Below, piece by piece: positions 3 through 1,685 of a stretch of 64,000 bases of DNA. The translations under genes were made by a program, and so were the position numbers. The stretch spans positions 186,001-250,000 of the forward strand of contig NZ_JAHXPQ010000003.1 in assembly GCF_019391655.1 (NCBI RefSeq), given 5' to 3'. The DNA comes from Mucilaginibacter rivuli. Its GTDB lineage: Bacteria > Bacteroidota > Bacteroidia > Sphingobacteriales > Sphingobacteriaceae. Below the pieces are notes generated by a model that was not told where the DNA came from, ran no database searches, and saw only the letters and a list, made by a program, of their open reading frames with translations. Every line of letters begins with the position of its first letter. Position 1 is the stretch's first letter.

Positions 3-335
3 GTAATGGTGTTGATAGACAGCCGAGTGCCGCCGCAAAAAATAGATATTCAGTTTTGTAATTGGTTAGGCGAAAAAGGGTTATCATTCGTTCTGATATT
101 TACCAAAGCGGATAAACAATCGAGCATTAAAACCGACCAAACTATCGCGGCCTTTAAAAAAGAACTGTTAAAAACTTTTGAAGAAGTACCGCAGGTGTTC
201 ATCACATCTGCCGAAGAGCATACAGGACGCGAGGAAGTGTTGGGATTTATTGGTTCGATAAATGCCCAATTCGACCCAAAAGCTGCCGCCGCAGTTTATG
301 AGGATTATAAAAATTCGATAGAAAATAACACATAG
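3..335 (+). CDS. engB: Ribosome biogenesis GTP-binding protein EngB/YihA (3' part only)
   Basis: The reading frame is open from the left window edge, so this is the C-terminal ~110 residues of a ~200-residue GTPase. The segment after the G3 region (VLIDSRVPPQKID) and the G4 guanine-specificity motif TKAD (residues 33-36 of the visible part) identify the TrmE-Era-EngA-EngB-Septin class; the G5-like SAEEHTG follows. EngB assists maturation of the large ribosomal subunit in the cytoplasm. The G1 P-loop lies outside the window. In related genomes I recall this gene directly preceding the UbiA prenyltransferase found here at 831; here a DUF559 cassette lies between them. Confidence 0.88.
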   Translation, partial: VMVLIDSRVPPQKIDIQFCNWLGEKGLSFVLIFTKADKQSSIKTDQTIAAFKKELLKTFEEVPQVFITSAEEHTGREEVLGFIGSINAQFDPKAAAAVYEDYKNSIENNT

Positions 336-356
336 GTAAGGCCTTGAGCGATGGGC

Positions 357-384
357 TCCCCTCTTGAGAGGGGCAGGGGTGTGT
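357..384 (+). repeat. Left inverted repeat of the DUF559 cassette
   Basis: It reads TCCCCTCTTGAGAGGGG, then C, then AGGGGTGTGT. The reverse complement of 789-817 is the same except that TT replaces the single C, so 27 positions match around one small indel. Within the arm, CCCCTCT and AGAGGGG can form a 7-bp stem with a 2-nt loop. Confidence 0.85.
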
Positions 385-402
385 AAGCCAACGGATAGGA
401 AA

Positions 403-822
403 ATGAAACGCAAGATCATTCCATACAACAGTAAATTAAAACAACTTGCAAGAAGCTTAAGAAACGATAGCACATTAGGCGAAATATTATTATGGAAAGA
501 GTTAAACAACAAACAGTTTTATAGTCAGGATTTTCATCGTCAAAAACCATTACTTAATTATATTGTAGATTTTTATTGCTATGAGTTGAATTTGGTGATC
601 GAGATAGATGGAATGTATCACAATCATGAAGAAAAAAACAACTCCGATATTTTACGTGATAAAGAATTAGAATCATTTGGATTAACAGTTATTCGTTTTA
701 CAGAAAAAGAAGTGCGACAGGATATGATAAATATTATACGAACGCTTGAGGATTACTATTTAACATTTATAGAAAAGCACGCAGAAGAACACACCCCTAA
801 CCCCTCTCAAGAGGGGAACTAA
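403..822 (+). CDS. DUF559 family endonuclease-like protein
   Basis: A 139-residue protein starting at ATG 403 (MKRKIIPYNSKLK). A TTG start at 364 is possible but would translate the left repeat. DUF559 proteins share the fold of Vsr-type very-short-patch-repair endonucleases. Visible signs are an Arg-rich helix (LARSLRNDSTLGE), an FHRQKPL segment, then D of IVDFY and the E-x-D of VIEIDG, the usual PD-(D/E)XK-like acidic set, followed by a His. The last residues HTPNPSQEGN are encoded by the right inverted repeat at 789-817, so the C-terminus is repeat-derived. Substrate unknown. The gene interrupts an engB-ubiA arrangement and is followed after 8 nt by ubiA. Confidence 0.8.
   Translation: MKRKIIPYNSKLKQLARSLRNDSTLGEILLWKELNNKQFYSQDFHRQKPLLNYIVDFYCYELNLVIEIDGMYHNHEEKNNSDILRDKELESFGLTVIRFTEKEVRQDMINIIRTLEDYYLTFIEKHAEEHTPNPSQEGN
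789..817 (-). repeat. Right inverted repeat of the DUF559 cassette
   Basis: It reads ACACACCCCTAA followed by CCCCTCTCAAGAGGGGA, the reverse complement of the left arm except for one small indel. It overlaps the 3' end of the DUF559 coding sequence, which stops at 820-822. Confidence 0.85.
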
Positions 823-830
823 AATTCGAT

Positions 831-1685
831 ATGAAAAAATACCTTTCATTAGTTACCTTTTCGCATACTATTTTTGCCATGCCATTCGCTTTTATCGGCT
901 TCTTTTTGGCAATAACTACCACAACCCACGCTTTTGAATGGCAAAAGCTTTTAATGATGGTGATGTGTATGGTATTTGCCCGTAACTCGGCTATGGCATT
1001 TAACCGTTATTTGGATAAAGATATTGATGCCAAAAACCCACGCACTAAAGTACGCGATATACCTGCAGGCAGGTTAACGGCAAAGGCAGCTTTAACATTT
1101 ACTTTGGTTAACTGCGCGTTGTTTATTCTCACTACATGGTTCATCAACACGCTGTGCTTTTACTTATCACCTGTAGCTTTATTTGTAGTGCTGGGCTATA
1201 GCTTTACCAAGCGTTTTACCGCGCTTTGCCATTTGGTTTTAGGTTTAGGCTTGTCGCTTGCCCCTATTGGCGCTTATTTAGTGGTAACAGGCGAGTTTGC
1301 TCTATTACCCATCTTTTTCTCGCTATCGGTACTATGCTGGGTAAGCGGGTTTGATATTATTTATGCTTTGCAGGATGAAGACTTTGACCGTGCCGAAAAC
1401 CTGCACTCTATACCAGCTTATTTAGGCAAGGTTAACGCGCTCCGTTTATCTACAGCGCTACATGTACTATCGGCTATTTTTATTGCATTACCAACCATCT
1501 ACACACATGTAGGCTGGCCTTACTATGTTGGGATACTATTCTTCTGTAGTATGCTCATATATCAGCACAGACTGGTTAAGCCTAATGACTTGAGCCGTGT
1601 AAACTTCGCTTTTATGACCACTAACGGAATTGCCAGCGTAGTATTCGCAGTATTCTTTCTGATAGACAGGCTTTGGGTGCGATAG
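831..1685 (+). CDS. UbiA-family polyprenyltransferase (menaquinone-type)
   Basis: A 284-residue integral membrane prenyltransferase with about eight hydrophobic helices. Both Mg-diphosphate motifs are visible: N58-xxx-D62-xxx-D66 in FNRYLDKDID, and D182-xxx-D186 in LQDEDFD. The family transfers a polyprenyl chain to an aromatic acceptor in quinone synthesis. The length and the RTKVRDIPAGRL segment resemble the UbiA-like (MqnP-type) branch rather than MenA; Bacteroidota make menaquinone, so a ubiquinone role is unlikely. ATG at 831 follows 8 nt after the DUF559 stop, so the two are probably co-transcribed downstream of engB. Confidence 0.85.
   Translation: MKKYLSLVTFSHTIFAMPFAFIGFFLAITTTTHAFEWQKLLMMVMCMVFARNSAMAFNRYLDKDIDAKNPRTKVRDIPAGRLTAKAALTFTLVNCALFILTTWFINTLCFYLSPVALFVVLGYSFTKRFTALCHLVLGLGLSLAPIGAYLVVTGEFALLPIFFSLSVLCWVSGFDIIYALQDEDFDRAENLHSIPAYLGKVNALRLSTALHVLSAIFIALPTIYTHVGWPYYVGILFFCSMLIYQHRLVKPNDLSRVNFAFMTTNGIASVVFAVFFLIDRLWVR

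Follow-up and report, generated by a model that had tools for sequence, protein, structure and literature searches.

Among the dispersed palindromes, which are common repeats of bacterial genomes, the repetitive extragenic palindromes (REPs) have their described partners in the REP-associated tyrosine transposases (RAYTs), and a CGTC class of REPs is seemingly without a dedicated transposase, according to the accessible part of one account (PMC3733652). For the paired form of the repeat, the REPIN, co-diversification with its RAYT gene has been proposed, as the available sections of another paper put it (PMC3116915). Here we analyse a 64,000-nucleotide stretch of the Mucilaginibacter rivuli genome (contig NZ_JAHXPQ010000003.1, positions 186,001 to 250,000; this whole stretch is called the window below), in which a gene for a DUF559 protein is bracketed by two matched palindromic arms. 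As in the REP/REPIN-RAYT systems, short palindromes pair up in inverted orientation to give one long hairpin, are dispersed, and bracket a cognate gene that is present in a single copy. The palindromes around the DUF559 gene are also dispersed without any gene, and the predicted nuclease probably cuts or nicks its cognate palindromes, whereupon repair would copy the elements.

The arms bracket the gene at 357-817, measure 28-29 nt and are built on CCCCTCTTGAGAGGGG. The left arm (357..384, + strand; TCCCCTCTTGAGAGGGGCAGGGGTGTGT) consists of a palindrome at 358-373 followed by CAGGGGTGTGT, and the right arm is its inverted copy (789..817, - strand). Their outer parts, 357-373 and 801-817, are complementary at 100% over 17 nt, and the inner continuation, 370-384 and 789-803, at 87%; the total of 28-29 nt includes one small indel. 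The 16-nt palindrome core is found at two places in the window, both beside the DUF559 gene, with 0.02 matches expected. Each arm is near-palindromic in itself, with a predicted fold of a 6-bp stem and a 4-nt loop. The gene (403..822, + strand) runs from an ATG at 403 to a stop at 820-822, an alternative upstream TTG at 364 being likewise open, and codes for 139 residues, the last ten of which, HTPNPSQEGN, are encoded by the right arm on the + strand. Since the proteins of three other loci (L148, L159 and L117; loci are numbered with L and genomes with G) stop short of the arm, this tail is read-through and no conserved part of the protein. An initial annotation of the sequence had described inverted repeats of 28-29 bp with one indel around one gene, a right repeat coding for the last ten residues and near-palindromic arms, and the alignment of the arms, direct reading and the predicted stem-loop agree with it on each point.

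The protein matches PF04480 (DUF559) at 7.4e-30, with 103.5 bits against a cut-off of 20.6, and family profile and fold both place it among the DUF559 / Vsr-like PD-(D/E)XK nucleases, which predicts a nuclease function. For its AlphaFold model, the closest folds in the PDB are 3hrl, a homing endonuclease and Vsr, and 3hrl is matched by sequence too (7e-19). The gene is under purifying selection, with a pairwise ratio of nonsynonymous to synonymous substitutions (dN/dS) of 0.02-0.11 in the six of 11 pairs whose dS is unsaturated, dS being saturated in the other five. In Caulobacter, as the accessible part of a recent study has it, a methyltransferase mutant depends on the DUF559-domain protein VsrA for a DNA damage response, a finding consistent with action on DNA inside cells (PMC12907096). 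Two other roles were considered and rejected. As regards a defence system, PADLOC gave weak matches only (the best, 1.3e-5, to a methyl-directed restriction enzyme; 7e-4 to a homing endonuclease model) and the sole NCBIfam match lay far under its cut-off; as regards plasmid or phage cargo, 38 records out of 72,556 for plasmids and 2 out of 50,697 for phages contained relatives, all below 60% identity.

In the whole assembly (4.58 Mb in 14 contigs, labelled G000), there is one DUF559 gene and there are 31 exact sites of the palindrome pattern, against 0 sites of the reversed control pattern. Two of these sites make up the window unit, five stand alone, one of them adjoining a decayed partner, and the other 24 form 12 pairs whose starts are separated by 60-89 bp, so that the dispersal in hairpin-forming inverted pairs known from REP/RAYT is found here as well. 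The solo arms that the initial annotation had thought worth looking for are thus present, along with gene-less pairs. Eleven of the 12 pairs face inward, in the order palindrome, GGGGTGTGT (degenerate in some), a short middle, ACACACCCC and palindrome; the exception is L025, whose arms face outward. One gene-less pair folds into a single hairpin of -35.1 kcal/mol (z -8), with 0 of 200 shuffles as good. The gene-bearing unit has many short gene-less counterparts, as REPINs would be. As a side observation, a 657-codon frame (L288:2825-4833, on G000:C1) is flanked on each side by a short element; the stretch has matches at other positions in G063, G049 and G008, and its outer flanks are close together in G063 and G049. 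This pair of short elements may have carried or exchanged the gene.

The association extends to the genus, where a DUF559 match is present in 87 of 100 genomes and the A palindrome, that is, the window type, in 77. From among the matches listed, 80 loci of small DUF559 genes were fetched with their flanks, and four arm families, A, B, C and D, are found at them: the B arm reads CCCTCCC-nn-GGGAGGG followed by AGGGAGGGGTTT, the C arm CCCTCTCT...AAAGAGGG plus a second small hairpin, and the D arm CCCCCTTTAGGGGG. In a tree built from 110 DUF559 rows, labelled A (23), B (11), C (26), D (12) or none (38), the arm labels need 12 changes, against a mean of 61.0 for shuffled labels and 0 of 200 shuffles as low; B is nested within A, and no locus has two arm types in the scanned stretch. 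The arm patterns derive from a reading of the same loci, on which the tree labels therefore depend. The 38 rows labelled none comprise 22 rows of a further family E described below, an armless subclade of eight, and eight with variant or decayed repeats (L098, L102, L104, L106, L108, L121, L138 and L157), whose inverted-repeat scores are 29-84, but just 23, near chance, at L108. Arm family follows DUF559 subfamily, and the two have co-diversified. Apart from this, the armless loci (L119, L135, L139, L153, L161, L162, L168 and L169) have a downstream neighbourhood common to six of the eight, and this subclade is possibly domesticated.

The number of arms also tracks the cognate gene. At least five A sites are found in all 34 genomes with a clade A gene versus 23 of 66 without (Fisher 9e-12), and at least five B sites in 26 of 33 genomes with a B gene versus 21 of 67 without (7e-6), both uncorrected for phylogeny, and the crossed pairs are much weaker (0.02 for A sites with the B gene, 0.01 for B sites with the A gene). 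The gene lists behind these counts were assembled by hand from identity bands among the matches listed, and damaged or partial copies, G011 and G025 among them, were counted as present. Sites of pattern C occur in 82 of the 100 genomes.

A test free of arm patterns was made by scoring inverted repeats across the gene, with a threshold of 30 and shuffled sequences as the null. Of the 80 small loci, L152 was without a match, L177 belongs with family E, eight form the armless subclade, and among the other 70 three had flanks too short to be scored; 58 of the 67 thus scored reach 30 versus 0 of 268 shuffles. Control loci of ubiA reach 30 in 2 of 30 cases. Loci of Y1 transposases (L178-L207) do so in 12 of 27, through repeats of their own, which means that RAYT-type and DUF559-type systems coexist in one genus. 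Eighty named DUF559 loci were also taken, four of which were dropped for short flanks, and 59 of the other 76 reach the threshold versus 1 of 304 shuffles. By record title, those beyond Bacteroidota include Ignavibacteriae, Acidobacteria, Pseudanabaena, Nitrospirae and Deltaproteobacteria, and further Alphaproteobacteria, Thiocystis, Brevinematales, Calditrichaeota and Magasanikbacteria. The pairing of DUF559 with inverted repeats is real and extends to other phyla. Many arms share one plan, a palindrome of the form C-run...G-run, then either a few spacer bases or another hairpin, then a second G-run, and their stems vary with pairing kept (CCCCTCT/AGAGGGG, CCCTCCC/GGGAGGG, GTCCCC/GGGGAC). The second G-run is a repeat of the stem's 3' strand, leaving the C-run two possible partners, and the centroid fold of L127 pairs the outer one. 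A MAFFT alignment of 16 arms misplaces the C-runs and was used for display only.

The window unit sits between a reading frame ending at 335 (stop 333-335) and a frame at 831-1685, both on the + strand, and in this the cassette parts two genes as the initial annotation had it; engB and ubiA are the names given there, from the sequence alone. The left one, engB, is an open reading frame of which the window holds the 3' part only (3..335), and ubiA (831..1685) has a match at E <= 0.001 in 99 of the 100 congeners. Empty sites, which the initial annotation had named as a check, exist: the engB-ubiA junction is without the unit in L088, L095 and L074, with 34, 36 and 61 nt respectively. At the same junction, L079 has a solo arm, L096 has a DUF559 gene with a damaged frame and an intact arm on either side, and L068 (this genome), L072, L089 and L097 have units, and no relative was found with the same gene at the same place without arms. 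In L078 and L082, as an observation of its own, CGTCATTGCGAGGAACGAAGCAATCTC repeats stand at this junction in place of the DUF559 unit of other species.

In G029 the two genes overlap (..AAAAACTCGATATGAAAAAATACC), and in this genome the unit separates two copies of AAAATTCGATA, the left at 310..320 and the right at 821..831 on the + strand, the left being part of a 22-nt repeat, 82% identical, with a single copy, AAAACTCGATA, in G029. From this direct repeat and the unit-free junction in G029 (L068 versus L071), the whole unit would span 321..820 (+ strand), its exact ends being drawn from one relative. The pattern is compatible with either insertion plus duplication or precise loss in G029. 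Four relatives, G029, G049, G007 and G063, lack the short element at C1:118291-118389, their flanks being at most 12 nt apart or overlapping, and in this genome the element has GAAATAG on both sides; the flanking repeats are thus 11 nt at the window unit and 7 nt at this short element. Target duplication as a general rule is not claimed here, the signal over 24 paired A elements being weak. Clade A loci occupy the ubiA position (13 rows including the window) and up to seven others, four of which are single loci matching no other flank. On the weakly resolved tree this takes seven position changes, and well-supported branches force only two for the ubiA label.

A fifth DUF559 subfamily, family E, has arms of its own (GCCTCACCCCGGCCCTCTCCAAAGGAGAGGG and variants), and 19 of its 21 rows besides L177 score at least 30 for inverted repeats. 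Several arm families can be read without a stop, so that units can sit in frame inside proteins, and the hosts of family E are what we take, from their sequences, to be an Lhr-type helicase (4 rows), a fused CoA mutase (14) and leucyl-tRNA synthetase (3; L051, L054 and L057), the last an essential enzyme. At L177 the unit lies at the C-terminus of an apparent tRNA pseudouridine synthase. The frame stays open past the unit in 20 of the 21 rows and ends shortly after it in L061, the translated arms giving peptides such as LTPALSKGEG and SFGEGRGEA. Units with D arms, for example in L050 and L099, are likewise read in frame into a presumed hisF. A reading of the rows with frames of about 900-1400 aa as helicase fusions, or as a negative control, was dropped; they are family E in several host genes.

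For one in-frame site in the CoA-mutase gene, 27 loci were taken and the region was obtained in 19: seven are empty (this genome included), one is solo-armed, one pair-armed and ten are full, and a single site thus occurs in all four states. In a second loop of the mutase, peptides of the A arm are found in L342 (this genome), L335 and L328, and peptides of the E arm in L319, L320, L322, L324, L326 and L327. The in-frame A-type arm of this genome is KHTPNTSQEGNYF at G000:C10:369986-370001 (L035, L342), with other repeat peptides in the same loop elsewhere. Among these, the ETQSIASLQ-like peptides of L331, L333, L334, L336 and L338 suggest a further in-frame repeat family.

The best reading of these observations is a REP/REPIN-like mobile system in which a PD-(D/E)XK nuclease replaces the tyrosine transposase. 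In such a system the DUF559 protein would recognise the hairpin of its own arm and cut or nick beside it, and the cut would trigger copying repair, as that of a homing endonuclease does, so that the hairpin-bounded stretch would be copied elsewhere. The gene-less pairs would be non-autonomous derivatives, the counterpart of the REPIN, moved in trans, with solo arms as their remnants, and arms free of stops would let insertions in surface loops survive. The initial annotation had proposed a DUF559 protein as the agent of a REP-like unit: the pairing stands, well beyond this locus, on the arm families, the co-occurrence and the empty sites, and the agency, with the cutting and moving of the arms, is what we infer. 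A broader generalisation seems evenly poised between right and wrong, namely that these are a bacteria-wide class of selfish palindromic elements, with one PD-(D/E)XK nuclease subfamily for each hairpin, gene-less pairs served in trans, and in-frame units translated together with essential enzymes like inteins that never splice.

Several points weigh against the mobile system. Vsr-type enzymes nick or cut, and strand transfer by them is not known to us; copying must therefore come from host repair, which is the weakest step of the mechanism. Flanking repeats of at least 7 nt are found at 14 of 24 paired A elements versus 36% expected, a weak signal of general target duplication. The armless subclade reaches the inverted-repeat threshold at 0 of 8 loci, and 17 of the 76 named loci, including Phormidium, Neomarinimicrobiota and a Patescibacteria group, fall below it. 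When one arm pattern was sought outside the genus, in eight genomes, a Brevinematales genome had 18 sites and the seven others had 0-4 each, so that genome-wide dispersal is established for this genus alone. Lastly, arms are not found everywhere without relation to DUF559, an outcome that the initial annotation had counted as adverse, with the qualification that 23 of 66 genomes without a clade A gene hold at least five A sites, among them G013 (109 sites) and G073 (103). In G013 a damaged DUF559 copy lies beside ubiA; arms may persist once the gene is lost, or be served by a different gene.

These gene-free arms are also what would be seen if DUF559 were a passenger, merely lying between two palindromes that a RAYT or another enzyme moves, and a Y1 transposase match is indeed present in 91 of the 100 congeners, this genome having a single weak one (4.9e-7). 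We regard this as unlikely: arm families differ between DUF559 subfamilies, the palindromes of A, B and C are found at 0 of the best 30 Y1 transposase loci among the matches listed, each scanned with as much as 1.5 kb of either flank (D in one), and the co-occurrence of clade A genes and arms would be unexpected for a passenger. Similarly unlikely is the reading that DUF559 keeps or polices the palindromes without any spreading, by processing extruded hairpins, or that the gene needs its arms for expression or stability. The strong purifying selection and the role of the Caulobacter protein in the DNA damage response (PMC12907096, in the part accessible) suit such a function, which by itself leaves unaccounted for both the units in frame inside enzymes and a site that is empty, solo-armed or full in different species.

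A plain homing endonuclease, whose gene enters a fixed target in uninterrupted alleles and whose arms are scars or binding sites, must be judged improbable, with most arm copies gene-less and away from such targets and with clade A units at other positions too. That the arms are ordinary hairpins, such as terminators, or chance can be given next to no credence. They are GC-rich hairpins, and the fold of the single arm is unremarkable in stability (z -0.8 and -2.0). This explanation is nonetheless contradicted by the site counts (31 versus 0 for the control), the tree labels and the inverted-repeat scores, and also by two matched inverted copies around the gene and by in-frame copies inside an enzyme. 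The REP/REPIN-like mobile system is accordingly the reading that we compare below with what has been described.

In open-access full text, with bioRxiv and most subscription papers outside the scope of the search, no paper joining DUF559 with palindromic repeats was found. Compared with the Vsr-like homing endonuclease I-Bth0305I, the window unit shows no sign of an intron or intein. A fixed uninterrupted target, as homing endonuclease genes have, is seen at the mutase site of family E, and the clade A units stand at ubiA and at other positions; we know of neither matched palindromic arms nor gene-less short derivatives among the features of such genes. Miniature inverted-repeat transposable elements (MITEs) of DDE insertion sequences are alike in forming short gene-less inverted-repeat pairs beside a longer gene-bearing form; unlike them, the DUF559 unit has no DDE transposase and shows no general target duplication, and each of its arms is itself palindromic. 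Vsr repairs T:G mismatches. A reading of 1-2400 revealed no cytosine methyltransferase next to the window gene. Vsr and other DUF559 proteins, namely 3hrl and Caulobacter VsrA, share the same domain (for VsrA, PMC12907096), and in the literature read, of which some sources were accessible in part, Vsr has no link to dispersed repeats. The Rickettsia palindromic elements are palindromic repeats too, some of them in frame within genes according to the accessible part of PMC10969869, and they differ in arm sequence, as do the CGTC-tagged REPs. A link with the latter was tried and rejected: in a scan for one sequence form, a CGTCATTGCGAG-type repeat lies near only 1 of 159 DUF559 loci (L136), so that DUF559 does not explain that repeat.

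If the reading is right, cognate repeats would exist for a second enzyme family unrelated to the RAYTs, which would suggest more than one origin of such a lifestyle, a role for the 'unknown function' domain DUF559 would follow, and repeat mobility would become testable with a protein of 139 residues. The in-frame units in what are presumably leucyl-tRNA synthetase, CoA mutase and helicase would be natural insertion mutants of conserved enzymes. With REP/RAYT, the closest of the known systems, the differences are three. A GTAG tag stands at one palindrome end there, as the accessible part of PMC3733652 describes, whereas the A arm, read in the two arms of the window, has no GTAG at its palindrome end; the DUF559 units occur in frame inside enzymes as well; and the gene codes for a DUF559 protein of the PD-(D/E)XK fold and not for a Y1 HUH tyrosine transposase. 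The pairing of a predicted nuclease with dispersed palindromes is described in none of the literature searched. The DUF559 system would work like REP-RAYT, but with a different enzyme from the one by which that family is defined.
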